From positions 1 to 42,183 of IMG/VR virus record IMGVR_UViG_3300011114_000884: 42,183 nt of DNA; one strand, given 5' to 3'. This DNA is from a virus. The notes beneath the pieces were generated by a model. The model did not search any database. It worked only from the letters and a program-made list of their open reading frames with translations, and was not told the DNA's origin. Numbering within the stretch: the stretch's first letter is position 1; each line of letters opens with the position of its first letter. This document shows, piece by piece, positions 689 through 37,662 of this stretch. A program made the translations under genes and the position numbers.

Positions 689-1324
689 ATGACTAGACGC
701 TTTGCGTTATTGCCTGACGATTTAATCTGCGCACTAGACGGCCAAACCGTTCGCGTGCTTGGTTTGCTCGCAACTTACGCCGACTTCAAAACAGGGCAAA
801 ACGCCTTCCCCTCAATCAGCACACTCGCAACCCGCCTAAACGTCGCAGAAAACACCGTGCGGCGAGCGCTAAAACTTGGCGTTAAATCTGGCGCACTCAC
901 CGCGCACAAACACCACGGCAAAGGAATGCAGCAACAAACAACATCGTACGACTGCCTTTGGATACCTAGCGCAATCATTCCAAAAAAGGCACGAGGGGTG
1001 CAGCCCACTGAAGCCCTAGGGGTGCAGCCCACTGAAGCCTATCTAACTCAGAATACCTTACTCCCAGAACTCGGCCCTACGCTGACTGCGCCCGACTTTC
1101 GCAATGCACGGGCTTGGCGTGTTGCTAAAAGCGACGCTCAACAATTGATTATTGCTTGGAACGAACTCAATCCCATCGCAAAACACCCGCCGCTTGAGGA
1201 TGCTATTCCTGTTGCTTATCGCGACATTTGGGCCACGCACACGCCCGAACAGATGGTTGCGCTTTTACGCCCCGCAGCGCTTCGCGGTGACACGTTGATT
1301 GCCGCGCTGCGAAATAAAAGTTGA
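689..1324 (+). CDS. Winged-helix DNA-binding, replication-type protein
   Basis: A 211-aa protein. Residues about 15-75 form a winged helix typical of plasmid and phage replication initiators: VRVLGLLATYADFKTG, then SISTLATRLNVAENTVRRAL, then the wing SGALTAHKHHG. The middle is a linker holding two tandem copies of GVQPTEA, coded by a 24-bp direct repeat at 994-1039. Linkers of this style occur in phage replication (O-like) proteins. The start ATG at 689 is preceded by TGGGA and begins just before the fold; upstream in-frame codons to 611 lack fold content. It lies alone on the + strand between terS and terL, both on the - strand. It could be a replication initiator or a transcription regulator; the sequence does not separate these. 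Confidence 0.65.
   Translation: MTRRFALLPDDLICALDGQTVRVLGLLATYADFKTGQNAFPSISTLATRLNVAENTVRRALKLGVKSGALTAHKHHGKGMQQQTTSYDCLWIPSAIIPKKARGVQPTEALGVQPTEAYLTQNTLLPELGPTLTAPDFRNARAWRVAKSDAQQLIIAWNELNPIAKHPPLEDAIPVAYRDIWATHTPEQMVALLRPAALRGDTLIAALRNKS
994..1039 (+). repeat. 24-bp tandem repeat inside the winged-helix gene
   Basis: Two copies of a 24-bp unit (22 identical bases starting AGGGGTGCAGCC, at 994 and 1018) code for the repeated peptide GVQPTEA. The period is a multiple of three, so gain or loss of a copy keeps the frame and only changes linker length. Confidence 0.9.
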
Positions 1325-3155: not shown

Positions 3156-3186
3156 GCCCCGTGACAAGGGCAAAAGAGAGGACACA
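3156..3186 (+). promoter_or_regulatory. GTGACA-loop leader hairpin, copy 2
   Basis: The stem is GCCC (3156-3159) with GGGC (3168-3171), and the loop is CGTGACAA. It is followed by AAAAGAGAGGA, a strong Shine-Dalgarno, and the ATG at 3187. The hairpin ends 15 nt before the start codon. The stem differs from copy 1 but pairing is kept. Confidence 0.75.
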
Positions 3187-4185
3187 ATGACAGCAGTTAC
3201 CAACTACGCGGGCACAACAGCCCCGATGAGCCGGTTCAAAGACGGCGCGGTTTTAATCCCCGAAGGCAGCGACCCCGGCGCTGTGATTATGGCGCACCCG
3301 ATTTTGGGCAGCGCAATTGAAACCGTCCCCATGATGTGCGCTAGTTTTCACCCACCCTATGTCCAGGACGTGGGCGATCGCCAGATCGTCCGCGTTGTCG
3401 ATTCAAAGGCATTGGGCGTCGTGGGCAAGCGTTACAAGGGTTTGAAGATCGCCAGTTTGGCTGGGTTGCTGACTAAATTGCATAAAGAATTTGGTTTGTC
3501 GTTTGAAACCGCGATGTTGCTCGAAAACGACACCACGTTTCTCACACAAGCCTCGCTGCGCACGTTTGACCTTGGCCCCCTAGCGTCAACTCAGCGTGCC
3601 AAACTGGACACCAACGGACGTGATTTGGTGAAGGGCTTCATGACGTTCGCCGACAACTTTGTTGGCAAGCGCAACGCCACTGTCGGCGCAGCGCACACCC
3701 GCGCGGTTTGTGAGAATACGGCGGCGGCGGCAATCGCCGAGTCAAAAGAATCGCTGTACGGCAAGCCAATTCGCCACACGGGCGATGTTGATTTGAAGCT
3801 TGACCAGTGGCACAAGGCGATTGAAGACAGCTTGCAAGCGCTGGCGCGGTTCGAGGAATTTGCGACGTGTGCCGCGCAAACCAAGGTGACGCACAGCGAC
3901 GCACAAGGTTTGATTGACCTGTTAATTCCGGTGCCGGTTGACGCGAGCCCAGTTAAGGCTCAAAGCAAGCGCGATGCGATTTATGCGGCTTTTGACAATG
4001 GCATCGGCAATTCAGGCCGCACCGCTTGGGATTTGTACAACGGCGTCACCGAGTACGCCAATTGGAGCGCACCCGTGCGCGGTGCTGACCCGCACAAGGC
4101 CCGCATGGAGTCGATTTTGTGGGACGGTTTGGGCGATTTGGTTCAGACCGCTGAAACACACTTGCGGATGTACCTGAGCCTTTAG
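3187..4185 (+). CDS. DUF932 / phage-plasmid-like protein
   Basis: A 332-aa protein. The C-terminal block TAWDLYNGVTEYANW (about 279-293) is the signature of the DUF932 family (phage/plasmid-like protein TIGR03299), as is the preceding region of alternating conserved aromatic and charged residues. The biochemical role of this family is not established; members are common on phages and plasmids and often highly variable. The start ATG at 3187 has an AGAGAGG site 7-8 nt upstream. It lies second in the four-gene leader group, with 96 bp of leader before and 116 bp after. Its length is typical for the family. Confidence 0.8.
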   Translation: MTAVTNYAGTTAPMSRFKDGAVLIPEGSDPGAVIMAHPILGSAIETVPMMCASFHPPYVQDVGDRQIVRVVDSKALGVVGKRYKGLKIASLAGLLTKLHKEFGLSFETAMLLENDTTFLTQASLRTFDLGPLASTQRAKLDTNGRDLVKGFMTFADNFVGKRNATVGAAHTRAVCENTAAAAIAESKESLYGKPIRHTGDVDLKLDQWHKAIEDSLQALARFEEFATCAAQTKVTHSDAQGLIDLLIPVPVDASPVKAQSKRDAIYAAFDNGIGNSGRTAWDLYNGVTEYANWSAPVRGADPHKARMESILWDGLGDLVQTAETHLRMYLSL

Positions 4186-4272: not shown

Positions 4273-4301
4273 GCGCTGTGACAAGCGCACAAGAGGGCCA
4301 A
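4273..4301 (+). promoter_or_regulatory. GTGACA-loop leader hairpin, copy 3
   Basis: The stem is GCGCT (4273-4277) with AGCGC (4284-4288), five pairs here, closing the loop GTGACA (4278-4283). ACAAGAGGG follows as ribosome binding site, then the ATG at 4302. The hairpin ends 13 nt before the start codon. Confidence 0.75.
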
Positions 4302-4457
4302 ATGATTAGCTTTAATTTCGCAGTCTGCATCACCGGTGGCACTGTCCGTTTCCAAACCTTGGCGCAAGCGATTGCTTTCTATGACAATTGCATGGCCGAT
4401 CGTCCCCGCTCGCTGTGGTACGGCAGCGAACGCTTGAACCGCGAACGCTACCTGTAG
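4302..4457 (+). CDS. Small hypothetical protein of the leader group
   Basis: A 51-aa protein (starts MISFNFAVCITGG, ends SLWYGSERLNRERYL). It is compact, with no membrane segment, and rich in aromatic residues toward the end. I do not recognise a family. The start at ATG 4302 is fixed by the AGAGGG site and by the leader hairpin at the same distance as in the other three genes; upstream in-frame codons run through the leader. It is third of four genes that share this leader. Confidence 0.7.
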   Translation: MISFNFAVCITGGTVRFQTLAQAIAFYDNCMADRPRSLWYGSERLNRERYL

Positions 4458-4533: not shown

Positions 4534-4564
4534 GGCCCGTGACAAGGCCAAAGGCAGGAAACCC
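4534..4564 (+). promoter_or_regulatory. GTGACA-loop leader hairpin, copy 4
   Basis: The stem is GGCC (4534-4537) with GGCC (4546-4549) around CGTGACAA. It is followed by AAAGGCAGGA as ribosome binding site and the ATG at 4565. The hairpin ends 15 nt before the start codon. Confidence 0.72.
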
Positions 4565-5281: not shown

Positions 5282-5346
5282 TCGCCAAGGTTCGCTACAA
5301 TCTGTATCTAATCGGCTACAGATTGCAGCGGGCGAGAAGTGACCAA

Positions 5347-5466
5347 ATGAGCAAGAAGTTGGAGGTAATTTTCGGCGCACGTCTGCCAGTTCCGGCTGGG
5401 TCGGTAGCTCCCCGATTGTCACCAGACGTGCGCCGAAAAATGCTAACCAACGCAATCTGCTGCTGA
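5347..5466 (+). CDS. Possible 39-aa peptide read through a large inverted repeat
   Basis: The ATG at 5347 opens a 39-codon frame (starts MSKKLEVIFGARL, ends TNAICC, TGA at 5464). Upstream is GCGAGAAG, an acceptable but not strong ribosome site. Most of the frame lies inside the 17-bp inverted repeat described at 5369-5439, so the codons may be incidental to an RNA or DNA structure. It is not recognised as any family, and lies just before the 5477 promoter. Confidence 0.35.
   Translation: MSKKLEVIFGARLPVPAGSVAPRLSPDVRRKMLTNAICC
5369..5439. repeat. 17-bp perfect inverted repeat, three-way-junction fold
   Basis: TTTTCGGCGCACGTCTG (5369-5385) is perfectly complementary to 5423-5439. The 37-base interior holds two further small stems: CCAG/CTGG (5386-5389 with 5396-5399) and TCGG/CCGA (5401-5404 with 5412-5415). 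The whole can fold as a three-way junction. T and A runs sit on the wrong sides for a classical terminator on either strand. It ends 37 bp before the early promoter. Confidence 0.7.
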
Positions 5467-5476
5467 AAAAATAAAG

Positions 5477-5504
5477 TTGACATGTGTGTAAATACTGCTA
5501 GACT
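5477..5504 (+). promoter_or_regulatory. Sigma70-type early promoter
   Basis: A perfect -35 TTGACA (5477-5482), a 16-bp spacer and a -10 TAGACT (5499-5504) preceded by TGC, an extended -10 feature. It lies 32 bp before the GTG start of the first gene of a long overlapping operon and is the best promoter I see in the window. Confidence 0.75.
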
Positions 5505-5536
5505 GAATCAGGGCGCGATAGCCCGCGAGGCGTACA

Positions 5537-5779
5537 GTGGAAAACGAAATAACGGCCCGCGATTGCGACGTGGCTGAGTTTATTCGCAAATCCCGCGAGG
5601 CTGGCGTCACTGACGCAGCAATCGCGGTTCAATTTGGCGTGAATCCCACAACTTACCGCCGCTGCTGGTTGCGGCTGGTGGCTGCGGGGTTGGATTGCGG
5701 AAGCCCACGTAGGGCTGGGCAACCCCGGCATATTTTAGTGCTGCCCGACACGGAGCCAGTGCAATCGAGGTTGAAATGA
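5537..5779 (+). CDS. Small helix-turn-helix protein
   Basis: An 80-aa protein starting at GTG 5537, with GAGG seven bases upstream. Residues about 11-45 read as a helix-turn-helix (VAEFIRKSREAGVTDAAIAV, then FGVNPTTYRRCW). The C-terminal part is basic and without clear fold. It is first in the operon from the 5477 promoter, a place where phages often encode a regulator. It overlaps the next gene by 4 bases. DNA binding is inferred from the HTH pattern only. Confidence 0.6.
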   Translation: MENEITARDCDVAEFIRKSREAGVTDAAIAVQFGVNPTTYRRCWLRLVAAGLDCGSPRRAGQPRHILVLPDTEPVQSRLK

Positions 5780-6015
5780 TTACGCAAGAGGAAATTTGTG
5801 ACAGCTATCCCACTGAAGTTCACGATGCGCTGGACGCGATTGACCGGAACCGTGTGGCTCGCGCGCTTTGGCGCGACACCCCGCCACGGCCTTCAAATTT
5901 GCCCTCAGAGGCGCGTTTGTTTGCGTGGCGTGTCGTTGGCTGCCTGTTGGCGCTGGTGACAGTTTGCGGGGCGGTTGCGCTCGCGGATGCGTTGATTCAG
6001 ATGGTGGCGCAATGA
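5776..6015 (+). CDS. Small C-terminally anchored membrane protein
   Basis: A 79-aa protein with an acidic N-terminal part (TQEEICDSYPTEVHDALDAI) and one hydrophobic segment near the C-terminus (about 52-72, VVGCLLALVTVCGAVALADA), so tail-anchored in the inner membrane. Ribosome site GAGG stands nine bases before the ATG. It overlaps both neighbours by 4 bases, indicating translational coupling. The function is unknown; small early membrane proteins in phages often act on the host. Confidence 0.65.
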   Translation: MITQEEICDSYPTEVHDALDAIDRNRVARALWRDTPPRPSNLPSEARLFAWRVVGCLLALVTVCGAVALADALIQMVAQ

Positions 6016-6227
6016 CCCGCCCACCTGACCCGCCAGACAACCCGCCGTTCTACACAATCGCCGGGATGAATCGCGCATGGCGCGCAGCCTATGCCCGCGA
6101 CGGCGGGGAATTTTGGCCGCGCGACGAACAGCCGGACGCGGAGCCGGACACCGACGAAATCGCCGGTGAAATTGACCCGTGTGCGGTGCCGAGAACCTAC
6201 CCGAAACAGCTAACAATCGGAGATTGA
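6012..6227 (+). CDS. Small acidic hypothetical protein
   Basis: A 71-aa protein starting at ATG 6012, overlapping the previous stop (ATGA). The N-terminus is proline-rich (RPPDPPDNPPFY), followed by AGMNRAWRAAYARDGGEFW and an acidic tail. No membrane segment and no recognised family. The tight overlap and good composition support a real gene in the early operon. Confidence 0.55.
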   Translation: MTRPPDPPDNPPFYTIAGMNRAWRAAYARDGGEFWPRDEQPDAEPDTDEIAGEIDPCAVPRTYPKQLTIGD

Positions 6228-6228
6228 A

Positions 6229-6477
6229 ATGCTTGCTATTCTTACATATTCAGCACGATTTGACACCGACATCGACAAAATCCGCTGCGAAAGTTTTGGG
6301 CGTCCGTTGACCGTGGGCAATCTCGACACAGCGATCGAGCAGGGGCACGCGATCGAGATTAACCTTGGTGGCGGCTATTGGGTCACGCTGCCCGCATCCG
6401 AGATCGCGGCGGTCGATCACAGGCTCTACGAATCGCTGCTGCCAATTCACGCAGCGGTGGCGGCGAAAAATGCGTAA
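6229..6477 (+). CDS. Small hypothetical protein
   Basis: An 82-aa protein that starts MLAILTYSARFDTD; GGAG lies 6 bases before the ATG. The pattern suggests a small alpha/beta fold (LTVGNLDTAIEQGHAIEINL, then YWVTLPASEI). No recognised family. It follows its neighbour by one base and overlaps the next gene by 8 bases. Confidence 0.6.
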   Translation: MLAILTYSARFDTDIDKIRCESFGRPLTVGNLDTAIEQGHAIEINLGGGYWVTLPASEIAAVDHRLYESLLPIHAAVAAKNA

Positions 6478-6640
6478 CCTGCTGCAACAATGGGCAGAAC
6501 TCGACGCAGCCGAGCGTGCTTTTGCGGCGATGAGTGATGCCGCCGCCACCAAAGGCACGCGCAAGAACCAGCGCAACCGCTTGTTTTTAGCAGTGGAACG
6601 GCTGCGGAAGGCGCGGCGGGAGGTGTCACGTGCGCTGTGA
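6470..6640 (+). CDS. Small basic helical protein
   Basis: A 56-aa protein starting at ATG 6470 with a purine-rich site (GGTGGCGGCGAAAA). It is helical and basic toward the C-terminus (RNRLFLAVERLRKARREV). It overlaps the previous gene by 8 bases and the next by 11, so it is part of the same packed operon. No family recognised; nucleic-acid or protein binding would fit the charge but is a guess. Confidence 0.55.
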   Translation: MRNLLQQWAELDAAERAFAAMSDAAATKGTRKNQRNRLFLAVERLRKARREVSRAL

Positions 6641-6761
6641 TTCCTGCGGTCAATCCCGCGAAATCATATTGAACTCGGCAGGCGAGTGCTCGCGTTGCCG
6701 ACAACTGCCGTGGCGCTCGCGGCTCAAGCGGACGTTTTGGCTTTGGTGGATTCGCCACTGA
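6630..6761 (+). CDS. 43-aa zinc-ribbon peptide
   Basis: A GTG start at 6630 follows an excellent GGGAGG site by 6 bases. The 43-aa product begins MRCDSCGQSR and continues GECSRCRQLP, giving two CxxC pairs spaced as in a zinc ribbon, then a basic and Trp-rich tail (RLKRTFWLWWIRH). It overlaps the upstream gene by 11 bases. Tiny CxxC proteins are common in phage early regions. Function unknown; nucleic-acid binding is possible. Confidence 0.55.
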   Translation: MRCDSCGQSREIILNSAGECSRCRQLPWRSRLKRTFWLWWIRH

Positions 6762-6829
6762 TTCCCAACCCTTCCGCAGCGGTCAAGGATGGCTACTGCA
6801 CAACCGCGCTTCGGCGCAAGGAATTTGAA

Positions 6830-7657
6830 ATGTTTACACAAGGTCAAAGGTGCTTTTCCGATTCTGGGCGCGAAGTTGAGTATCTCGCGCCACTGCCAAA
6901 CGGATTCCACTTGGTCTACCCGTTTTTGGAGGCCGACGATTACGAATACCGTTCGCCCGAACCAACCGTTGTTGAGCGGCTTTTTGCCGAAGCGCCTACG
7001 CAAGTGAAAAATGCGGAGTTGGCTGAACTTGAAGCGCAAATCGCGAGCAAGCGCGATGAGTTGCGCATGGTCAACTCGGACATTCGCGGCATTCAAGCCA
7101 CGCGCGAGAAACTTCTCGCGAAATTACAGGATGTTCCAGAACTTCAGCGCATCGCCGATTGGCTCGACGGTAAGATCACCTGCTTTGTAGTGCATGACAA
7201 TTACAGCCTTTCATTCAAGGCGTTCAGCGAAATTGGGGAGGGAACGGACAGCGAGCGGGACATGGTGCGGCTACTGTGTTTGACCGGAGACGCCACGACC
7301 AAGGGAATATCGTGGAAATTCAACCGCTACAAGGACGGCAGCGGCAGTTGGACTGACTGCATTCCTTGCGCCGACGCCTCGGAACAAATGGCTGCGGGTC
7401 AAAAGATTGCCGATGCTTGGTGGCGGCAACGCGATCGGGACTGCGCAGAACACGTTAGAATTTCACGGATTAGAAGCTGTTTGGCGCATGGGCTTACTGT
7501 GCCGCCCGACGCCCGCGACCTGCTTGCTCGTTTTGATGTGGATCTGGCGCAAAAGAAATTGACCCACGCAAAACACGAACTTGCGTCGTATCAAGCGAAA
7601 GTGGACGCGCTCATCGCCAAATTAGCCCAGTCCAACCCGCTTGACGCCGCCCGTTGA
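6830..7657 (+). CDS. Hypothetical protein with two coiled coils
   Basis: A 275-aa protein. The ATG at 6830 is preceded by AAGGAA at good spacing; the frame is open further upstream but without a site. Residues about 58-98 form a coiled coil (LAELEAQIASKRDELRM), then a globular middle (WLDGKITCFVVHDNYSLSF), and a second coiled coil near the end (LTHAKHELASYQAKVDALIA). I do not recognise a family. The position between small early genes and the replication genes suggests an early role. Confidence 0.7.
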   Translation: MFTQGQRCFSDSGREVEYLAPLPNGFHLVYPFLEADDYEYRSPEPTVVERLFAEAPTQVKNAELAELEAQIASKRDELRMVNSDIRGIQATREKLLAKLQDVPELQRIADWLDGKITCFVVHDNYSLSFKAFSEIGEGTDSERDMVRLLCLTGDATTKGISWKFNRYKDGSGSWTDCIPCADASEQMAAGQKIADAWWRQRDRDCAEHVRISRIRSCLAHGLTVPPDARDLLARFDVDLAQKKLTHAKHELASYQAKVDALIAKLAQSNPLDAAR

Positions 7658-7785
7658 CCTGTGTTACAAACGAAACCCAGCAAGCGCCTACAACCGACTT
7701 GCAGCACCCGTTCCCAGAATCGCCCGCTGCCTCGCCCCACGACCCGCAGCACAGCGAACCGTTACCGCCCCCGACTGTGTTGTAG
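7654..7785 (+). CDS. Possible 43-aa proline-rich peptide
   Basis: A TTG at 7654 overlaps the previous TGA and opens 43 codons rich in Pro, Gln, Thr and Ser (TNETQQAPTTDLQHPFPESP). The overlap style matches other genes here, but there is no ribosome binding site. It fills most of the 163-base gap before the replication gene. Weakly supported. Confidence 0.25.
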   Translation: MTCVTNETQQAPTTDLQHPFPESPAASPHDPQHSEPLPPPTVL

Positions 7786-7820
7786 CAGTCGGCGTGGCGG
7801 ACGGTGTCAAGGAATTGGTA

Positions 7821-8681
7821 ATGCCCGATCCTGCATGGTTCCACCCAATTGACTACACCGACGTGCAAGCGCTGCGCAAATTCACGCCGTCGCAGCGCTG
7901 GACATACATCGAACTGTTCAGCGGTGAACTTGGCAGCAAACACGGGCTTGTCGAAGTCCGCAGCGCCCTTATCGCTGGCGAATTGGATTGCGAGCGAGCG
8001 ATAATCGACTTCGACATCGCCGCGCTGGACGCGGGCGGCGCGATCATTTGGGACGCAGCGAATCGGCTGGCGTACCAACTCGGCCATTTGCTCCGACATT
8101 GCCCAAACGACAGCGCGCGCGATGCTTGGCGCAAGGCTATCCGAAACCTTCCGCAAGGTTGCGCGACCAATGCTGCACTCTCTGAGCTAGACGGCACACC
8201 GTGCCCCCACCGTGGCAGCACCGTGGTGGCACCGTTCGCGCGCGTTGAACAGGAACAGGAACAGGAACAGGAACAGGAACGTAAAACAGGAACGGGAACA
8301 TCTACGGGAACAGGGTCGCCTTCGGCTCCCGCTCCCGCTCCGGCTGCGCCAGAGCAATTGATCCTTGAAGCTGGTGAGGCAAAGGGTAGGGACAAAACAC
8401 CACCCCCCTTGCCGCCCAAGACACGCAAAGACCGCTGCACTATCGCGCAAGCCACTGAATATGCAAACGAACTCAAAATGCCAACCGGCACCGGCGAGAA
8501 GTTTGTCAATCATTACGACTCTATCGGCTGGAAACGTGGTAAAGCAGCAATCCTTGACTGGAGGGCGACGATGCGAACGTGGCGGAATAACGAAAACAAC
8601 AGCGGCGATCGCTACCGAGGCAAGGTTGACAACCGCGCCCCAGTCAGAGAGATCGAGGGCGAAAACGAGGTGTTCTTTTGA
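7821..8681 (+). CDS. Replisome-organiser-like replication protein
   Basis: A 286-aa protein; ATG 7821 follows AAGGA by 7 bases. The N-terminal ~110 residues are a conserved-looking domain (WFHPIDYTDVQALRKFTPSQ). A low-complexity linker follows (EQ repeats, then TGTGTSTGTG and AP repeats, about 143-175). The C-terminal block FVNHYDSIGWKRGKAAILDW and TMRTWRNN matches the W-x-G-x-x-I-x-W-x2-x-x-W ending of phage replication proteins of the O / DnaD-like organiser type. These bind the origin and recruit the helicase loader, and the next gene is indeed a DnaC-like loader, overlapping by 4 bases. The linker length may vary because of a hexanucleotide repeat. Confidence 0.7.
   Translation: MPDPAWFHPIDYTDVQALRKFTPSQRWTYIELFSGELGSKHGLVEVRSALIAGELDCERAIIDFDIAALDAGGAIIWDAANRLAYQLGHLLRHCPNDSARDAWRKAIRNLPQGCATNAALSELDGTPCPHRGSTVVAPFARVEQEQEQEQEQERKTGTGTSTGTGSPSAPAPAPAAPEQLILEAGEAKGRDKTPPPLPPKTRKDRCTIAQATEYANELKMPTGTGEKFVNHYDSIGWKRGKAAILDWRATMRTWRNNENNSGDRYRGKVDNRAPVREIEGENEVFF
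8247..8280 (+). repeat. GAACAG hexanucleotide tandem repeat
   Basis: Five full copies of GAACAG plus GAAC lie inside the replication gene and encode an alternating Glu-Gln tract. The unit length keeps the frame if copies are gained or lost. Confidence 0.95.
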
Positions 8682-9505
8682 GCAACGATTATAATGACTA
8701 TGGCGAAACCTTCCAATCCGCCCCACGTCCGCCGCCGCTGTACGATCGGCCCGGCCACGAACTTGTCAGCACGCCAGCCGAGGCATTGGCGCAGAACTAT
8801 TGGATCTGCCGCGATGAATTGGGCTTCACTTATCCGTTTGGCAACGGCGTAATCAAACGGCCCGACGGCACAAGTTGCATCGTGACCACGGATTGCTACG
8901 GCAGATGCACGCGGCTTGAACGCGATGCCAGCGGTAGCGCCGTCAAGCCCAAGGAAATCGCCGCCGAGCATGATTCGCCGCCGTGGACGGTCAATGGCAA
9001 GCCGGTCACTGTGACGCCGGAAATCGAGCAGTGCAAACGCTGGGCTGCCGACTATCGGGCGGGCGGGCGACACGGGCTGCTGCTGAGCGGCGGAGTCGGC
9101 ACAGGCAAAAGCAATGCTGCGACCTGGATGTGCATTGACGCCGCCGCCCGCTACGAAATCGTCCAGAACTGGCTTGAATTTGTGCGGGAAATGCGCAGTG
9201 AGTACGGCAAAAGCGAACGCCAGTTTGACGATCGGATCGCCGTTGTCAGCAAAGCTGCGGTTTTGATTCTGGAAGATTTGGAAGTGCCGACCGCGAACGA
9301 CGATCGGCAACTGCTGGCGCAGATTATCGATGCCCGCTGGCGCAACAAACTGCCAACAATAATCACCTGTAACATGACGTTGCCGGAGTTGGAGAAAGCA
9401 GGGCTTGACGCGAGAGTTGCAAGCAGAATCGGCAGTTACAGCAAACTGCTGTTTCGTGGGCAGGACTTTAGACGCAGCCGAACCGCTGCAAAGGATGCGA
9501 GATGA
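8678..9505 (+). CDS. DnaC-like helicase loader ATPase
   Basis: A 275-aa AAA+ ATPase. Walker A is LLSGGVGTGKSN (about 135-146), Walker B is AVLILEDLEVP (about 194-204), sensor 1 lies at TIITCNMTLPEL (about 227-238), and an arginine-finger-type Arg lies in DARVASRI. Spacing and the LILEDL Walker B match the DnaC/IstB family, which loads the host DnaB helicase. It begins with TTG at 8678, supported by GAGG seven bases upstream and overlap with the previous stop; no ATG exists before the Walker A region. It acts together with the preceding organiser. No helicase is encoded, so host DnaB is the likely partner. Confidence 0.85.
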   Translation: MSNDYNDYGETFQSAPRPPPLYDRPGHELVSTPAEALAQNYWICRDELGFTYPFGNGVIKRPDGTSCIVTTDCYGRCTRLERDASGSAVKPKEIAAEHDSPPWTVNGKPVTVTPEIEQCKRWAADYRAGGRHGLLLSGGVGTGKSNAATWMCIDAAARYEIVQNWLEFVREMRSEYGKSERQFDDRIAVVSKAAVLILEDLEVPTANDDRQLLAQIIDARWRNKLPTIITCNMTLPELEKAGLDARVASRIGSYSKLLFRGQDFRRSRTAAKDAR

Positions 9506-9936
9506 GCCGATACCCCAACAGCAATTTATTCGGCGAGGATGTAATCATAATCCCCAACGATCCCGGTGATGCGGCCAAAGCCTACGCGGCCACAATCGCG
9601 CTGCGCCACTTCGACGTGATTGACGAACTGCTCAACACGTTCGCCGTCTCGGCGGTCAACTGCGCAAGTTTTGCCGCAGTTAACTCGCAAGGCGCACGCC
9701 CACGATGGATGCGAGACGCCATCGATGAGCGAACAGCGGCGGCAGACGCGATTGTGGCCGCGTTGCTGTCGCGTGATGGCGAAATCGCCAGCCAGCGTGA
9801 CGAATTGTCACGACTTCGCAAAGAACTTGCGGACATGACTGACAAATATCTTGAGGCGATCAAGCCACTCGACAGCCGCGAATGCCCAGCCTGCGGACAC
9901 CCGTTGTGTGATGGCGAAATCTGCACGGAATGCTAG
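9502..9936 (+). CDS. Hypothetical protein with C-terminal zinc ribbon
   Basis: A 144-aa protein, ATG 9502 overlapping the loader stop. The middle contains a coiled coil (about 90-118, DGEIASQRDELSRLRKELAD). The last 20 residues carry ECPACGHPLCDGEICTEC: four cysteines in two pairs suited to zinc binding. A metal-binding ending on a coiled coil suggests a nucleic-acid or protein adaptor. It is last in the promoter-5477 operon before a 132-base gap. Confidence 0.65.
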   Translation: MSRYPNSNLFGEDVIIIPNDPGDAAKAYAATIALRHFDVIDELLNTFAVSAVNCASFAAVNSQGARPRWMRDAIDERTAAADAIVAALLSRDGEIASQRDELSRLRKELADMTDKYLEAIKPLDSRECPACGHPLCDGEICTEC

Positions 9937-9980
9937 GGTTGAAACAGCCGTGATTGCGGGGCGATACAACTATTTTGCGG

Positions 9981-10042
9981 CGATTGCATTTATTTGCACA
10001 AATCCGCTTGACACTGCCGCCGATTGCATTATCCTGCACAAC
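9981..10042 (+). promoter_or_regulatory. Two 20-bp direct repeats flanking and covering a promoter
   Basis: CGATTGCATT begins at 9981 and again at 10021, exactly 40 bp apart. Each is followed by AT-TTTGCACAA-like sequence (ATTTGCACAA, then ATCCTGCACAA). The second copy overlaps the -10 of the promoter at 10008-10035, and the first is upstream of its -35. This is the layout of paired operators bridged by a dimeric regulator. The HTH protein coded just downstream is the obvious candidate. Confidence 0.6.
10008..10035 (+). promoter_or_regulatory. Sigma70-type promoter before the recombination module
   Basis: A -35 TTGACA (10008-10013), 16-bp spacer and -10 TATCCT (10030-10035). It lies 33 bp before the ATG of the small HTH gene and would drive the ATPase-nuclease-RecT-RusA genes. 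Confidence 0.65.
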
Positions 10043-10068
10043 AGGCCGCGAACAACGGCGGAGGGAAG

Positions 10069-10254
10069 ATGGAACTTTTGAGCTACACCGACGCCGCGAA
10101 GCTGCTGGGCGTTCACCGCAACACCGTGCATGACATGGTGAAAGACGGGAAGTTGGAGAAGGTTGTACTGCTACGAACACCCAAGATCCGACGGTCGGAA
10201 ATTGAGGCGATTTTGAACGGGACGAAAGCTGTTGAATCGGCTGAGGGAAAGTGA
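10069..10254 (+). CDS. Excisionase/MerR-like small HTH protein
   Basis: A 61-aa protein; ATG 10069 with GGAGG four bases upstream. The sequence YTDAAKLLGVHRNTVHDMVK followed by a strand and RRSEIEAIL is the classic winged MerR-type HTH of the excisionase/AlpA-like class (HTH_17). It sits behind a promoter with two direct repeats and overlaps the ATPase gene start. Autoregulation of the recombination operon is likely; excision is unlikely because no integrase is present. DNA binding is well supported, the exact role is inferred. Confidence 0.8.
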   Translation: MELLSYTDAAKLLGVHRNTVHDMVKDGKLEKVVLLRTPKIRRSEIEAILNGTKAVESAEGK

Positions 10255-11735
10255 TGAGCGTAATCAAACTGGTGAAAGCCAACAATTTTCAGCGTATTGA
10301 AGCGGTCGAAATCCATCCGCGTCCTGGCGTGCAAGTGCTGGCGGGCAAGAATGGGGCGGGCAAGACTTCGGTTTTAGACGCTATTTTCGCTGCGTTGGCG
10401 GGCAAGTCGGCATTCCCTGCCAAGCCCGTACACGGTGACGCGGCGAAGGCTGAACTTGTGCTGGAAACCGATGACGGCCTGCGCATCGAGCGGACCATCA
10501 AGCCTGATGGCAGCAACAGCCTGCGAGTGCTGCAAAACGGCGTGCAGTTGGGCGGCTCGCTTCAGGCGATGTTGGATAAGAAATTCCAGTCGATTGCGTT
10601 TGACCCGCTGGCATTCACGCGGCAGAAGCCGAAAGAGCAGGCAGACACGCTGCGCAAATTGGTGGGCGTGGACACGTCGAGGCTGGATGGCGAGCGGTTG
10701 ACCGTGACGCAGGAGCGGCTGCTTGTTGGCCGCGAGCGCGATGCCGCCCAAGGCCACGTCGATTCGATGCCGCCGCTGGTTGCGGGCGTGCCCGATACCG
10801 AGGTCTCGCTTGCCGATTTATTGGCGCAGCAGACTGCCGCGACGGAGGCCGCGAATCGCAAAGCGGCGCTTGTGCGTGAAGCGGAAGATGCTGATATGCG
10901 GCGGGGAAATAATGTCTCGAAAATTGCCGAGTTATCGGCGGAAATGGAGGGGATTGATCCCGATTCAGCACTGATGAGCCTCAACGCTGAGACCGCGCAA
11001 CAATTGGTGCGCGCAGAGGAAATGCTTGCAGAACGCATTGCGGCGCTGCAATCTCAGATTGAGCGTGAGCGCGCCGGTTCGCTTGCCCGCGCAGCCGAGG
11101 TTGGCGCGAGTTTGGCCAAGAGATGCCAGCAGATTCGCGATGATGCGACCGCGAAAACCGCAGACCTGAACGCCAAACTTATCAGCCACAGCGACCGCGT
11201 GCAGGAACTACAAGGGTTTGCTGACGCCAAGCGCGTCGAAGCCGACGCAATCGCCGTCGCCGATACCGCCGCGCTTCAGGCGCAACTCAGCGGAATCGAA
11301 ACGATAAACGCCGCTGTCCGCGCCAACGCCGCGCGAATCAAAGCAGGGATTGCCGCGCTGAAATTGGTCAACGACTACAAAGCAAAGACCGCGCGCATCG
11401 ACGCCATCGACGCCGAGCGCAAAGCCATGATTGCTGCGGCGAAATTTCCGGTGGACGGGCTTGGGTTTGGCGAGGACGGCACGCTGCAATTCAAGGGTTG
11501 GCCACTTGAGCAGGCGTCGCAAGCCGAGCAAATCCGCGTGAGTACGGCGGTCGCGATGGCGATGCAGCCGGAACTGCGCGTTTGCCGCGTGGCCGATGGC
11601 GGGTTGCTGGACGCCGACAGCATGGCGATGCTGGACGAATTGGCGGAAGCGAATCAATTTCAGGTGTTTGTCGAGTGCATCGTGCCGACGGGCGAAGGCT
11701 GCATCGAGATTGTTGACGGCAAGGTGGCGCAATGA
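10254..11735 (+). CDS. SbcC/Rad50-like AAA ATPase of the recombination module
   Basis: A 493-aa SMC-type ATPase. Walker A GKNGAGKTS at 31-39 follows the typical N-terminal strand FQRIEAVEI. A long helical coiled coil spans about 190-390. The C-terminal signature region lies near 418-428 (LEQASQAEQIRVS), followed by a degenerate Walker B, VCRVADGGLLD (about 441-451), instead of hydrophobic-DE. Such 'hydrophobic-x-DGxLLD' endings are usual in phage ATPases beside RecE-like nucleases and RecT. It probably couples ATP hydrolysis to end processing by the next gene. GTG at 10251 and ATG at 10254 are both possible starts; the ATG has GAGGG six bases upstream. Confidence 0.85.
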   Translation: MSVIKLVKANNFQRIEAVEIHPRPGVQVLAGKNGAGKTSVLDAIFAALAGKSAFPAKPVHGDAAKAELVLETDDGLRIERTIKPDGSNSLRVLQNGVQLGGSLQAMLDKKFQSIAFDPLAFTRQKPKEQADTLRKLVGVDTSRLDGERLTVTQERLLVGRERDAAQGHVDSMPPLVAGVPDTEVSLADLLAQQTAATEAANRKAALVREAEDADMRRGNNVSKIAELSAEMEGIDPDSALMSLNAETAQQLVRAEEMLAERIAALQSQIERERAGSLARAAEVGASLAKRCQQIRDDATAKTADLNAKLISHSDRVQELQGFADAKRVEADAIAVADTAALQAQLSGIETINAAVRANAARIKAGIAALKLVNDYKAKTARIDAIDAERKAMIAAAKFPVDGLGFGEDGTLQFKGWPLEQASQAEQIRVSTAVAMAMQPELRVCRVADGGLLDADSMAMLDELAEANQFQVFVECIVPTGEGCIEIVDGKVAQ

Positions 11736-12592
11736 TTACACCTTACACGCCAGAAGCGCTTGCCGCCTACGACTGGAGCAAACCGATTGCGTTCAGCGGT
11801 ATGCCTTTCTCGGATTACGCTGCGATTACAGCGCTCAATGGCAGTTTGGCCAAGAAGGCGTTGCAAAGTCCATTCAAGGCCCAGCACTACCTGAACAACC
11901 CAAGCCCGCGAACACAAGGGCTTTTGTTCGGGTCAGCTTGGCACTGCGCGATGTTGGAACCGGAGCATTTCGACAGCGTTGCCGTCGTCGCGGGGGAAGG
12001 TAAAACGACTTTCAGCACCCGCAGCACAGGCAAGGGCGCGAAGGAATGGGTTGCTGCAAACCCCTCGCTGGTTCCGTTCGACGATGAGGACCGCGAGACT
12101 TGCAACGGCATGGTCGCGCGCGTCCGAGCGGGCGGCTACCAATTCGACGGCTGGCTGGCCGAAGTTGTGATCTTGTGGGAGCGCGACGGCGTGCGGCGCA
12201 AGGCGCGGTTGGACGGCTTGCGCAAAGACTGTAAAAGCATCCTGGAAATCAAAAGCGCCGAATCCGTTGAGCCTGAAGCGTTTTCGCGCAGCATCGCGAC
12301 CTACGGTTACGACGTATCGTGCGTTCATTACATGGAGGCGGTCACGCAACTGACCGGAAACGTGCCGAGTTTCGTGTTTGTTGCGCAGGAAAAAGAACCG
12401 CCCTACGACTTCGATTGCTGGGAGCCAGATCAAACGCTGTTGGATAGCGGCGCGGCGGGCATCGAATCGGCGGCAGAAGCATGGCGGCGCTCGGAAGGAT
12501 TTACCAAGCCGGAGCTTGCGCAGATTGTGAAGGTGAGCAAAATCGGTATGCCAAAGTGGTTTACCGGACGCAATGTTAAATTTCACGTTTAA
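11732..12592 (+). CDS. RecE-like PD-(D/E)xK exonuclease
   Basis: A 286-aa protein. GSAWHCAMLEPE (about 68-78) provides the conserved His of this family. The PD-(D/E)xK core reads ARLDGL (Asp161) and LEIKS (Glu172, Lys174), and the closing helix YDVSCVHYME carries the Q/Y-type motif. This matches the RecE/DUF3799 group of 5'-3' double-strand exonucleases that make 3' tails for RecT. The start ATG at 11732 overlaps the ATPase stop and has AAGG nine bases upstream. RecT follows after 12 bases. Confidence 0.85.
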   Translation: MITPYTPEALAAYDWSKPIAFSGMPFSDYAAITALNGSLAKKALQSPFKAQHYLNNPSPRTQGLLFGSAWHCAMLEPEHFDSVAVVAGEGKTTFSTRSTGKGAKEWVAANPSLVPFDDEDRETCNGMVARVRAGGYQFDGWLAEVVILWERDGVRRKARLDGLRKDCKSILEIKSAESVEPEAFSRSIATYGYDVSCVHYMEAVTQLTGNVPSFVFVAQEKEPPYDFDCWEPDQTLLDSGAAGIESAAEAWRRSEGFTKPELAQIVKVSKIGMPKWFTGRNVKFHV

Positions 12593-12604
12593 GTGAGGAA
12601 GCTT

Positions 12605-13498
12605 ATGAGCGATTCTACTGAAATGGCGACGGCGCAGCCCGCGCCGATTGAAAGCGCACGCACCGATTCGGAGCGGAACTGGAACCTGATGCAGCGCCGC
12701 GCGAAAGCGTTGGCCGCAAGCGGTCTTGTGCCGGAAGTCTACCAGAACAATCTGCCTAACGTGCTTGTGGCACTGGACATGGCGGATCGGCTTGGCGCAA
12801 ATCCGCTAATGGTGATGCAGAACCTTGTGATTATCCACGGTCGCCCGTCGTGGAGCGCGACGTTTCTGATCGCGACGGTCAACCAGTGCGGGCGGTTCAC
12901 GCCGCTGCGCTACGAGACCCGTGGCGACGACCCGCGCAAGACCGACTTTCGCTGCCGTGCGGTGGCTCGCGACATCGCCAGCGGCGACGTGTGCGAAGGC
13001 GAGTGGATCGACTGGCCGATGGTGGACGGCGAAGGCTGGAGCAAAAAGAGCGGCAGCAAATGGAAGACGATGCCCGGCCAAATGTTCCGCTACCGAGCTG
13101 CTGCATTTTGGGCGCGCACGTTTGCGCCCGAGGTGTCGATGGGTATTTACACCGAGGACGAGGCGCGCGATGTGGCTGTTGAGCCGTTGCCAGTCGCCAG
13201 CGTTAGCCCAAGCCAACGGCTGCGTCAGATGATTGCAGCACCAGCCTACGATGCCGAGACTGGCGAGATTACTGAAGGGGCAGAATCGTCCCCGCAAGCC
13301 CCGACGCCTGAAGCGCAGACAGACGCCGCACCGAAAGCGGATATACCAGCCAGCGGCCAAGCTGCTAAGCCGACGTGCCCAAATCCGAAGTGCGGCAAGG
13401 CCGTCGATGCTGAAATGCTGGCCGAGTGCAACGAGAAGGGAACCTGCCCCGTCTGCGCGCCGAAGCCGGTTGAACCAACGGATGGCAAGTTGCTGTGA
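12605..13498 (+). CDS. recT: RecT-family single-strand annealing protein with added zinc ribbon
   Basis: A 297-aa protein. Residues about 25-190 match RecT-type annealases: LVPEVYQNNLPNVLVALDMA, then NPLMVMQNLVIIHGRPSWSA, then PGQMFRYRAAAFWARTFAPE. They anneal single strands exposed by the upstream exonuclease. After an acidic Pro/Ala linker (about 192-252) the C-terminus carries five cysteines at 258, 263, 275, 281 and 284 in a zinc-ribbon arrangement (CPNPKCGKAVDAEML, then CPVC), which is not part of the standard RecT fold. The ATG at 12605 is chosen over the GTG at 12593 because GAGGA stands five bases before it. Confidence 0.88.
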   Translation: MSDSTEMATAQPAPIESARTDSERNWNLMQRRAKALAASGLVPEVYQNNLPNVLVALDMADRLGANPLMVMQNLVIIHGRPSWSATFLIATVNQCGRFTPLRYETRGDDPRKTDFRCRAVARDIASGDVCEGEWIDWPMVDGEGWSKKSGSKWKTMPGQMFRYRAAAFWARTFAPEVSMGIYTEDEARDVAVEPLPVASVSPSQRLRQMIAAPAYDAETGEITEGAESSPQAPTPEAQTDAAPKADIPASGQAAKPTCPNPKCGKAVDAEMLAECNEKGTCPVCAPKPVEPTDGKLL

Positions 13499-13790
13499 GA
13501 ACGCAAGGTTGCGCTGTGGTCCGGCAGGATCGCCACACCAGCGCAGCCGTGCCAGCGAGGGATGGCCAATCCCCGTGGGCAGTGAGTAGGCCCCGTAATC
13601 TCACTGCTGGCGACATCGGGGCAAATTCGAGCGGGTGGTAACCGCGAGTAGTTCCGGGGAGTCGAGCCGGACGTTAGTCGCGACGAAATAAGCGGCGCGG
13701 GGATGGCCAACCCCAGAACCATAGAGCCTAAGCCAGCGAGGCGCGCGCCGGACTGGCCCGAACGAGCGCAACTGCGCAGAGGTGTTGGGG
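13499..13790 (+). ncRNA. Candidate structured RNA between recT and rusA
   Basis: 292 bases without a supported gene, dense in complementary segments. (1) 13511-13519 pairs with 13533-13537 and 13541-13544 (GCGCTGTGG arm, 3-nt bulge). (2) GGGAT/ATCCC (13559-13563 with 13569-13573). (3) CAGTGAG/CTCACTG (13580-13586 with 13600-13606), whose loop holds GCCCCG (13590-13595) able to pair with CGGGGC (13617-13622), an H-type pseudoknot. (4) GCGG/CCGC (13631-13634 with 13642-13645). (5) TCCGG/CCGGA (13653-13657 with 13667-13671). (6) GGGG/CCCC (13699-13702 with 13711-13714). Hairpins 2 and 6 share GGATGGCCAA, and GCCAGCGAGG occurs twice (13551, 13732). It matches no RNA family I can name, and the alternative is an unrecognised DNA element. 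Confidence 0.5.
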
Positions 13791-14336
13791 ATGATTGAAT
13801 TTCGCATTGATCTTGTGCCGCGTGGTCAAGGACGCGCTCGCGCCACGTCGCGCGGCAGGTTTGCCAGTGTTTACAAGCACGACGACGACGTTGCTGCTGA
13901 GTCCAGCTTTGCGGCGCTTGCATCGCGACACCGGCCCGCCGAGTTGCTGCAAGGCCCGCTGCGGGTGCGCATTTTGGCAGTCCTGCCGAGACCAGCCGCG
14001 CTTTGCGGCCTGAGCAAACGCACAGGCGATCCGCTACAAGATCCGGGACGGCGATGGCACACAGCCAAGCCCGATTCTGATAATTGTATCAAGCTATGTC
14101 TCGATTCTCTGAAGTCTTTTTGGAAGGACGACGCGCAGGTGTCGGAGGTCGCGCTTGCCAAACACATCGCGGCGCTGAATGAACCGCCGCATTGGATGGT
14201 GAAAATCGAGCAATTGCCGGAGCTTGACAGCGGATGGCGACCGGCTGAAAAACCGCTGTCGGTAAAGGCGCGGAAGCTGGCGGCAAAGACTGCGGCAAAT
14301 GTTGCTGCGGTGAAACTGGCGGATGATTTATTTTGA
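13791..14336 (+). CDS. rusA: RusA-type Holliday junction resolvase
   Basis: A 181-aa protein. The family signature is clear: KPDSDNCIKLCLDSL (93-107) with Asp95, Asp97 and Asp105, then FWKDDAQVSEV (110-120) with Asp113/Asp114, the acidic cluster that binds metal for junction cleavage. The C-terminal ~45 residues extend beyond a typical ~120-aa RusA and are basic (VKARKLAAKTAANVAAVKLA). The ATG at 13791 has GAGG eight bases upstream. It completes the recombination set and may also resolve branched DNA before packaging. It follows the structured non-coding segment. Confidence 0.88.
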   Translation: MIEFRIDLVPRGQGRARATSRGRFASVYKHDDDVAAESSFAALASRHRPAELLQGPLRVRILAVLPRPAALCGLSKRTGDPLQDPGRRWHTAKPDSDNCIKLCLDSLKSFWKDDAQVSEVALAKHIAALNEPPHWMVKIEQLPELDSGWRPAEKPLSVKARKLAAKTAANVAAVKLADDLF

Positions 14337-14365
14337 GCGGCACGCGCCGCAGCGGAGAACAGCCA

Positions 14366-15205
14366 ATGGATATGCACCGATTCGACGACCTTGACCCCGT
14401 TGCGCTAGGGGCGGTCGACGCGTCCGTCCTCGCTGGCTATATCGCGATTTTGCGCGAGCGATTCGCCGAGCTTCACACATCCATCGAAATAATCGAAGCA
14501 GACCACGCCTCGGAAATCAGAGGCTTGCAGGATTCGCTGATCAAAGCGGAGAGCAAGCGGGATAACGCCATCACAGACCTGCGTGAAAACGCATGGCGCA
14601 TGGAATCGTCACAGCGAGCGTGTAGCGAAGCCATCGGCGCTCGCGACCAGCACTGGGAGAATGCCCAAAAGCTACGCGCCGAGCTCGCCGCGCTCAAATC
14701 CGCGCCGCAAGATGCGAGGATTGCGGAACTTGAGCGGCGGGCGACGGTGGCGCGAGATGAACTCGACGTTGCCAACGCCAGTCTAATGTTTAGCAACGAA
14801 GTGCGCGGATTGGACAAGCAGGAAATCGCAACACTCCGAGCCGCCAATGCCGCGCTCACCGCCGGAATCTGCGGCGGATGTAAGCAGGCGAAGGCTGAAA
14901 TCTCCAGACTAGGGATTGTCGCAGCCAATTGCGCCACCGATAACGAGCGGCTGAACGTGCAAATCACCAACGCCGCCAATACCGCTGAAATGAGGGCGGC
15001 TGACCACGCTGCGGAAGTCACGGCATTGCGCGGGCGTATCACAACGCTGGAAACCGCCGCGCAAAATCACGCGACCAGCTACCGCGACATGGCAGAATTG
15101 CTCGCCGACGAATGCGCCAAGAAAGAGGTCGCCAGCGACGTGTGCGATGCGTTGCAAATTGTGCTGCACCGCACGCATTTGAAGTTGTTGAAGGCGGGAA
15201 AGTGA
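14366..15205 (+). CDS. Long coiled-coil protein
   Basis: A 279-aa protein; almost all of residues 30-260 predicts as coiled coil (SEIRGLQDSLIKAESKRDNA, IAELERRATVARDELDVANA). A CGGCKQAK motif in the middle has two cysteines. ATG 14366 is preceded by GGAG; a TTG at 14333 overlapping the rusA stop is an alternative. No family recognised. The rod-like shape and early position fit a scaffold for other proteins or a superinfection/host factor, but no function can be claimed. Confidence 0.65.
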   Translation: MDMHRFDDLDPVALGAVDASVLAGYIAILRERFAELHTSIEIIEADHASEIRGLQDSLIKAESKRDNAITDLRENAWRMESSQRACSEAIGARDQHWENAQKLRAELAALKSAPQDARIAELERRATVARDELDVANASLMFSNEVRGLDKQEIATLRAANAALTAGICGGCKQAKAEISRLGIVAANCATDNERLNVQITNAANTAEMRAADHAAEVTALRGRITTLETAAQNHATSYRDMAELLADECAKKEVASDVCDALQIVLHRTHLKLLKAGK

Positions 15206-15450
15206 CCATTCGCACCATCGGCCAACTACGCCAAGTCGCGGGACAAGCCAACCGGCGTGCAATGCACTGTCCTGTTTGCTGTTATCCGCGATTCGCCGAC
15301 CCCGAACTGGCGATCGGCAAAGGCCGCGTGAGGCAGCTTTGCGCTGGCCACAGCAGAGACAGGTACACCGCGAGCCATCACGCGACGCTGAAATTATTGG
15401 CGGAAGTGGCTGCGCAATTGATTGAGGTTTTGGAGGTGAATCATGGCTGA
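15202..15450 (+). CDS. Small Cys/His protein, possible zinc finger
   Basis: An 82-aa protein starting at GTG 15202 (GGCGGGAAA upstream), overlapping the previous stop as GTGA. It contains HCPVCCYPRF and later RQLCAGHSRDRYT, giving Cys and His pairs about 25 residues apart that could bind zinc. The C-terminal helix (LKLLAEVAAQLIEVLEV) is amphipathic. No family recognised. It overlaps the next gene by 8 bases. Confidence 0.55.
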   Translation: MTIRTIGQLRQVAGQANRRAMHCPVCCYPRFADPELAIGKGRVRQLCAGHSRDRYTASHHATLKLLAEVAAQLIEVLEVNHG

Positions 15451-15757
15451 CCTGAAAGAACTAGCAGCGCGTATCGGCAAAACTCAGCGGTGGCGGGATG
15501 TGACGAGCGATCGGCAGGGGATGAACATGCGCGACCCGGAGCCGCATGTGGGCGGACACCGATGGCAGGTCAACGCCCATATGCGGCAGGTGGGCGGGTG
15601 GATCGAACGATCTATTGATTACGACTACGGACCCGAAGATAGCGGCCAGCAATCCTTGCACTACGGGCGCTTGATCTCGCGATCTTGCTCGTCAACCACC
15701 GGCGCGACATTCTTGCAGCTACCCGAATTGCCGCAAATCAACGCGTCAATCCAGTAG
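15443..15757 (+). CDS. Hypothetical protein, last gene of the early strand
   Basis: A 104-aa protein beginning MADLKELAARIGKTQRWRDV; the ATG overlaps the previous stop. The first ~70 residues have good composition (PHVGGHRWQVNAHMRQVGGW). The last 32 are Ser/Thr-rich and run antisense through the last 97 bases of the convergent late gene at 15661-15882. No family recognised. The real product may end as read, in which case two genes overlap tail to tail. Confidence 0.5.
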   Translation: MADLKELAARIGKTQRWRDVTSDRQGMNMRDPEPHVGGHRWQVNAHMRQVGGWIERSIDYDYGPEDSGQQSLHYGRLISRSCSSTTGATFLQLPELPQINASIQ

Positions 15758-36490: not shown

Positions 36491-36742
36491 CTAATCATCG
36501 TTGCGTAAAATGCCAGAAGGTAAATCGTCAGGCCCGTGGTCGTTGAAATCCTCTATCGGCACCTGCGGAATCCTACCTATGTCCGCACTGGTCTGAATCG
36601 GAATGTGCGTTTGCGGTGTTGCACCGTGCGGCAAATCCAACTCAGCTTCAATTTGCATCGCCGTGTGTTGCAAGGCGTCTGACAGATTGCGCGCCAACAG
36701 TGCCGTCCAGCGAACCAGACGAACTATTGAGGCACTTCGCAT
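36491..36742 (-). CDS. Small hypothetical head-operon protein
   Basis: An 83-aa protein. ATG 36742 has an ideal AAGGAGG four bases upstream; it overlaps the previous gene by 19 bases. The N-terminal half is helical (SIVRLVRWTALLARNLSDAL), the C-terminal half is acidic and Pro-rich (VPIEDFNDHGPDDLPSGIL). No family recognised. Confidence 0.6.
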   Translation of the reverse strand: MRSASIVRLVRWTALLARNLSDALQHTAMQIEAELDLPHGATPQTHIPIQTSADIGRIPQVPIEDFNDHGPDDLPSGILRNDD

Positions 36743-37131
36743 CCTGCCTCCTTCAATTGCGTAATCAGTTCAGCATTTGTGCCAGTCGGCTTAATCCCAA
36801 AAGCAAGGCAAAGCCTCACAATCTCATTGCGTTTTCCCGTATTGACCACACCGCTTGAAACTTTGGGCACAACAACTACGGGCGGTTGACGTGGCGGGGG
36901 CGGCGGGATAACCATTTCCGGTGCCGCAACTTTGACGCGCGCCACCACAAGCTCAGACGGCTTGTCCGTATCCAGTTCAGGATACTCAGCTTTGCCGTTC
37001 TTGACCGTGACTGCGACAAAGCGCAGGTCGGCGGCGGGGATGCACATCCGAAGTTGCGCAATCTCATAGTCCGCATCGGTTGCAAAAACCTGTTCGCGGG
37101 TGTAACGCCCATCAGGCACGGCAAACTTCAT
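36724..37131 (-). CDS. Head-operon protein with SAP-like C-terminal motif
   Basis: A 135-aa protein. The ATG at 37131 follows GAGGG; the frame is open to 37191 but that part lies in a strong hairpin and lacks a site. The N-terminal ~70 residues look globular (YEIAQLRMCIPAADLRFVAV). A proline-rich linker (PPPPPRQPPVVVVPK) follows. The last 35 residues (NEIVRLCLAFGIKPTGTNAE, then LITQLKEAGC) resemble a SAP/LEM-like two-helix DNA-binding motif. It may be a minor virion protein that contacts DNA; that is inference. Confidence 0.6.
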   Translation of the reverse strand: MKFAVPDGRYTREQVFATDADYEIAQLRMCIPAADLRFVAVTVKNGKAEYPELDTDKPSELVVARVKVAAPEMVIPPPPPRQPPVVVVPKVSSGVVNTGKRNEIVRLCLAFGIKPTGTNAELITQLKEAGCEVPQ

Positions 37132-37209: not shown

Positions 37210-37662
37210 TTACGCCAAACAGACAGCCATCACAACAACATCGCCGCGACAGTCAGTGGCTTTTGTCCACGTCGCGTTGAGCGTGTCGCCGTTGTCGCCG
37301 TCGAGCAGGCACGCCGCATCATCAATGCCGGTGTTGACGATCTTGAGCTTGTCATTGATATGCAAGTCAATCGCTGCATCGAGCATTGTGGTTGCGCCGT
37401 TCAAAATGTCCAGCGTGTCGCCAGCGCCGCCATTGCCCGCAGTCTTGTAGCCCTGCACGCCGATAACGGAGAACTTCTTGCCAGCCGGAATTTTCTTGGC
37501 CTGCGTGTTGGTCGCGTTGGTCACATTGCGGAAAAAGAAACCCAGCACAACGCCGGGCGCAACATCGGTCAACGACATGGACTTGACTTGCGTGCCGTCC
37601 AGTTCGTTTGCTTGCATGGTGCCGTCGGTCACGACGGTATGCACTACGTGTTTTTGAGCCAT
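37210..37662 (-). CDS. Probable head decoration or minor capsid protein
   Basis: A 150-aa, mainly beta protein (ELDGTQVKSMSLTDVAPGVV; KKFSVIGVQGYKTAGNGGAG; AIDLHINDKLKIVNTGIDDA). It directly follows the capsid gene with a 90-base gap and is of decoration-protein size. It ends in two cysteines. ATG 37662 has GGAG eight bases upstream. The capsid-surface role is inferred from position and composition. Confidence 0.6.
   Translation of the reverse strand: MAQKHVVHTVVTDGTMQANELDGTQVKSMSLTDVAPGVVLGFFFRNVTNATNTQAKKIPAGKKFSVIGVQGYKTAGNGGAGDTLDILNGATTMLDAAIDLHINDKLKIVNTGIDDAACLLDGDNGDTLNATWTKATDCRGDVVVMAVCLA

Follow-up and report, generated by a model that had tools for sequence, protein, structure and literature searches.

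A possible cis-acting mRNA structure in the 292-base gap between recT and rusA of an orphan phage

The recT and rusA genes of the phage in IMG/VR virus record IMGVR_UViG_3300011114_000884 are separated by 292 bases (from the recT stop at 13498 to the rusA ATG at 13791) that we tentatively read, with a probability of roughly 0.4, as a cis-acting mRNA structure that would uncouple recT from rusA at a junction unseen in relatives. Specifically, the 292 bases would be an untranslated part of an early polycistronic mRNA, at the site where recT and rusA were joined, and about 212 nt of it (13503-13714) would fold into a hairpin after the recT stop and then a branched domain closed by two copies of GGGATGGCCAAYCCC. 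The hairpin and domain might shield the exo-recT message at its 3′ end and block ribosomes from continuing from recT into rusA, and the RusA nuclease would be made separately from its own Shine-Dalgarno (SD) sequence, probably in smaller amounts, such that the levels of RecT and RusA differ. The RNA fold of the gap is probably real, though unreplicated. We infer both its formation and any effect on expression, and control of expression by the structure is purely conjectural.

The window, i.e. the whole record of 42,183 bases, carries an exact 127-base direct repeat at its termini (1-127 = 42057-42183), and a terminase gene (40825-42168) apparently continues across the record ends; the record thus appears circular or complete, with a genome of ~42,056 bp. 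Early genes occupy the plus strand up to 15757 and late genes the minus strand (Table 1). The first-pass annotation had placed the gap inside an otherwise tightly packed operon. The genes from 10069 to 13498 almost abut (gaps of -1, -4 and 12), and a 292-base gap is exceptional among them; elsewhere in the genome there is another long gap (494 bases, 5282-5775). The recT-rusA gap is the largest in the co-directional early run 5776-15757 (an apparent 237-base gap before 15443 is not counted, being filled by an ORF at 15112-15450). An alternative ATG start for recT is possible at 12605, and rusA has its own SD sequence, GAGG (13780-13783), at a good spacing of ~7 nt from the ATG. We note that the most structured 292-nt window of the genome is the one at 5257 (z -4.19), and that a long inverted repeat, ATTTTCGGCGCACGTCTG/CAGACGTGCGCCGAAAAAT (5368-5441), lies within the 494-base gap.

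Table 1 Genes and predicted elements at and around the recT-rusA gap.
Feature	Position	Strand	Details
AAA/SbcC-like protein	10254-11735	+	early block
Exonuclease VIII-like protein (exo)	11732-12592	+	early block
recT, RecT-like ssDNA annealing protein	12593-13498	+	upstream neighbour of gap; PHROG 561 E 4.9e-67, Pfam RecT
P1 hairpin, GCAAGGUUGCGCU/AGCGCAGCCGUGC plus inner 7-bp helix	13503-13552	+	-28.4 kcal/mol, z -3.79, 0/200 shuffles
P0 5′ strand, first GGGATGGCCAAYCCC copy	13559-13577	+	partner 13696-13713; predicted 17-bp helix, mean P 0.90
S1 hairpin, GCAGUGAG/CUCACUGC	13579-13607	+	13-nt loop containing GCCCCG; P about 0.96-0.985
Candidate pseudoknot stem S2 (6 bp)	13590-13622	+	GCCCCG 13590-13595 with CGGGGC 13617-13622; H-type pseudoknot in 5/2000 shuffles
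Branched arm within P0-closed domain	13609-13668	+	predicted helices 13616-13622/13651-13657 (P 0.95), 13625-13649 (P 0.81), 13631-13645 (P 0.92)
P0 3′ strand, second GGGATGGCCAAYCCC copy	13696-13713	+	predicted helix with first copy
Possible 31-aa ORF, MANPRTIEPKPARRAPDWPERAQLRRGVGDD	13703-13798	+	coding score neutral
rusA, RusA-like Holliday junction resolvase	13791-14336	+	Pfam RusA E 1.6e-16

Taken whole, the 292-nt segment is unremarkable, with a z of about -2 (-2.1) and a rank of 12 among 146 genome windows by z, and the six local stems that had been remarked upon in it are ordinary for GC-rich sequence. The first 120 nt of the gap stand out more clearly (z -3.13, 4th among 360 windows). 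The excess stability is confined to the core at 13503-13714, the final 76 bases contributing nothing. This 212-nt core is predicted to fold at -103.4 kcal/mol, with a z of -3.75 that is inflated by our having set the core boundaries after the fold was seen; none of 500 shuffles (0/200 and 0/300) and none of 198 same-size genome windows was as stable. The low ensemble entropy of the core is not rare (40/300 shuffles), nor is its long-range helix (15/300 shuffles), and the difference in stability between plus and minus strands is not exceptional (129 of 638 windows are equally biased). The excess folding supports the presence of some RNA structure.

Nearly all of the confident pairs of the predicted fold are contained in P1 and the P0-closed domain. 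P1 begins 4 nt past the recT stop, and its outer helix is predicted with a pair probability of 0.98 and its inner helix with one of 0.64. (The strongest 50-nt hairpin of the genome, at -39.8 kcal/mol, lies in the 37150 region, between the late genes 36724-37131 and 37210-37662.) In P0 the two copies of GGGATGGCCAAYCCC are predicted to pair with one another and thereby to close a multi-branched domain. These repeats had been described as two related hairpins sharing sequence 141 bp apart. Both copies of GGATGGCCAA and their 141-bp spacing are indeed present, but the hairpins are not predicted: the in-context pairing probability of each is <1e-4, and the copies pair mutually instead. Folded on its own, copy 1 adopts a hairpin (-10.3 kcal/mol, z -1.94) and the stability of copy 2 is at chance level (z -0.12); the 15-base copies differ by a single T-to-C change that is uncompensated in copy 2 if it is read as the copy-1 hairpin. 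Judged by the predicted fold, the description of the repeats as a hairpin pair is misassigned, and the lesson is that repeats read as two hairpins can be both strands of one long helix. Repeat pairs equal in quality to the GGATGGCCAA copies occurred in 3 of 300 shuffles and in 6 of 144 genome windows.

The first-pass annotation had also proposed an H-type pseudoknot. Both of its stems are present, and CAGTGAG/CTCACTG extends to an 8-bp stem S1 (GCAGTGAG/CTCACTGC, 13579-13586/13600-13607); with loops of 3, 4 and 9 nt between S1 and S2, the arrangement is sterically possible, and an H-type pseudoknot as strong was found in 5 of 2000 shuffles. One more such stem pair exists in the genome, elsewhere and on the minus strand. 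S2, however, competes with a better-predicted helix, the first of the branched arm, which occupies its 3′ strand in energies calculated without a pseudoknot model. The pseudoknot is, on these predictions, possible only. We considered an HDV-like ribozyme, in which a P3 helix lies between both pseudoknot strands, and rejected it since just 4 nt (UAAU) separate 13595 from 13600 and leave no room for P3. Programmed frameshifting was likewise set aside, no slippery heptamer upstream of the pseudoknot being seen by eye.

Homology searches of the gap in Rfam and in phage and metagenomic virus records returned no homologue. No Rfam family scored above its gathering cut-off (two chance matches had E values of 1.5 and 4.6), and none was found by blastn and nhmmer against 93 loci, by blastn against phages and plasmids, by exact patterns in IMG/VR and GTDB, or with covariance models in ~100 loci and 398 Pseudomonadota genomes (R1 and R2) or 39 records (R1 only). 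These collections may omit very near records, and the empty search tells us only that none lies within reach. Three sets of candidate matches were rejected. Exact GGGGATGGCCAAYCCC occurs in 16 stretches in IMG/VR, in contexts that are mostly coding and unrelated; 25-bp matches in Pseudomonas phage loci lie in coding context ~2 kb beyond the recT of those loci; and a covariance match of 16.3 bits came from a locus (L089) that had been picked by the same motif. RecT relatives share about 35-59% identity. No rusA was found in the fetched flank of the viral RecT relatives, and in those in which a whole-record search did find rusA it is located elsewhere; the recT-rusA junction therefore looks private to this phage. 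Searches of IMG/VR with the exo, portal, AAA/SbcC-like and terminase proteins yielded no confirmed relatives, and the phage is an orphan by sequence, lacking close relatives in the collections that were searched. Its major head protein matches those of Arthrobacter phages at ~34% over 30% of its length.

Nearly as likely as a cis-acting structure is that the gap is an ordinary functionless spacer, a GC-rich remnant at a mosaic recombination junction in which stems arose by chance. The gap has a GC content of 65.8%, against 57.4% for the genome, and the modest z of the whole segment, the apparently private junction, the occurrence of hairpins of equal strength within genes and the finding of conservation nowhere all fit such a spacer. 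What speaks against it is that no shuffle reached the energy of the core, that so few contained as strong a pseudoknot, and that 292 dispensable bases would seldom be retained in a packed phage operon. In favour of a cis-acting structure we count the folding excess of the core, the z of P1, the pair probabilities of P1, S1 and P0, the lack of a clear coding frame and of a terminator or promoter consensus, the SD of rusA and the exceptional gap; against it we count the post-hoc boundaries, the z of the whole segment, the empty homology search, the non-rare entropy and long-range helix, and the ordinary strand bias.

The gap had been described as free of genes, and no frame in it carries a clear coding signal. 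With genome-trained codon scores (0.29 ± 0.15 in the true frame and -0.30 ± 0.23 in the others), no coding frame was detected in 13499-13588, and the mod3=2 frame over 13588-13700 gave a weak signal (0.0-0.17) that exceeds most off-frames. An open stretch of 47 codons (13655-13795) scored 1.5, compared with an on-frame mean of 11.9 and an off-frame mean of -10.5; 9% of off-frame stretches reach this score, and only 5% of true coding stretches are as low. A small gene in this stretch is unproven. We regard as unlikely a small or decayed protein gene with GGATGGCCAA as its start region and the 31-aa peptide coupled to rusA. There is an 8-nt overlap between the ORF and the start of rusA, and both GGATGGCCAA copies read ATG GCC AAY CCC followed by an Arg codon (M-A-N-P-R), their differences over five codons all being synonymous (AAT/AAC, CGT/AGA); this and the weak mod3=2 signal fit a gene but do not establish one. 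Apart from the low score of the open stretch, such a gene is opposed by the first copy, which reaches a stop after 7 codons, and by the ORF itself, for which no SD at good spacing and no Pfam or PHROG family match was found, and for the 48-aa frame containing it no match below E 1 was found among phages. Readthrough of recT was rejected given three in-frame stops (13496, 13583 and 13652). We found no intrinsic terminator in the gap, i.e. no GC hairpin leading into a T run, and no promoter consensus.

Somewhat less probable still is that the two quasi-palindromic repeats make up a new structured phage RNA element that acts as a switch, in which mutual pairing that closes the pseudoknot domain alternates with two hairpins and sets rusA expression relative to that of recT. 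It is improbable that the near-palindromic GGGATGGCCAATCCC pair is a DNA element (an operator, origin or packaging site). For the gap, the first-pass annotation had offered an origin or packaging site alongside a cis-regulator of rusA and a new phage RNA. The only two copies of these quasi-palindromic repeats in the genome both lie in the gap, which favours such an element, but no promoter consensus lies nearby, and an origin or packaging site is disfavoured because the terminase and the iteron-like repeats are located elsewhere: the terminase apparently reads across the record ends, where pac would be expected, and tandem 21-bp repeats GGGGTGCAGCCCACTGAAGCC at 995 and 1019 (995-1039, plus strand) sit within an O-like replication gene (611 or 689-1324). 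Phage replication origins have iterons at or in the initiator gene; no iterons of this type were found in the recT-rusA gap, and from their sequence the repeats at 995-1039 are iteron-like and a candidate origin.

Least probable is a trans-acting phage RNA or a new riboswitch or ribozyme class, for which the GC-rich gap with its large and well-folded domain and the presence of one twister ribozyme in the same phage would speak, against an Rfam search empty even at E 5 but for the two chance matches, no promoter or terminator of its own, and no second example in any searched collection. The twister ribozyme (type P5, RF02684; 4187-4248, plus strand; 47.5 bits versus a gathering cut-off of 37.6) lies between genes 3187-4185 and 4302-4457, just 5′ of one GTGACA hairpin. 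A hairpin of this form, [stem]GTGACAM[stem], is common to four early-gene leaders (2487-2500, 3156-3171, 4273-4288 and 4534-4549, plus strand), 13-15 bases 5′ of the ATGs at 2515, 3187, 4302 and 4565, with a purine-rich SD region after it. It is possibly a repeated regulatory or processing element, and possibly of more interest than the recT-rusA gap.

The gap, read as a cis-acting mRNA structure, can be set beside three kinds of known system, and is currently one unreplicated candidate. The DIMPL approach draws structured RNA candidates from scans of long GC-rich intergenic regions (PMC8723152). The gap is likewise long, GC-rich and non-coding, but has no homologue, whereas DIMPL candidates rest on homologues and covariation. 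In bacterial and phage operons, structured intercistronic regions set unequal expression. Like these, the gap has a predicted strong hairpin directly 3′ of a stop codon and an SD of its own on the downstream gene; unlike them, it would form a larger branched domain. The leader pseudoknot of T4 gene 32 serves autoregulation by the gene's own ssDNA-binding protein. Among described phage leader pseudoknots it is the closest precedent; it lies 67 nt upstream of the start, and an unstructured A+U-rich run then covers the ribosome-binding site (PMC3014915). In the gap, by contrast, 168 GC-rich bases extend from the candidate to rusA in place of that spacing and A+U-rich run, and RusA is a nuclease whereas the T4 product is an ssDNA-binding protein; common to both is a pseudoknot, here a candidate, in a phage mRNA among genes for recombination proteins. 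If the fold is real, this would be another phage that balances the recombination proteins of one operon by means of mRNA structure.
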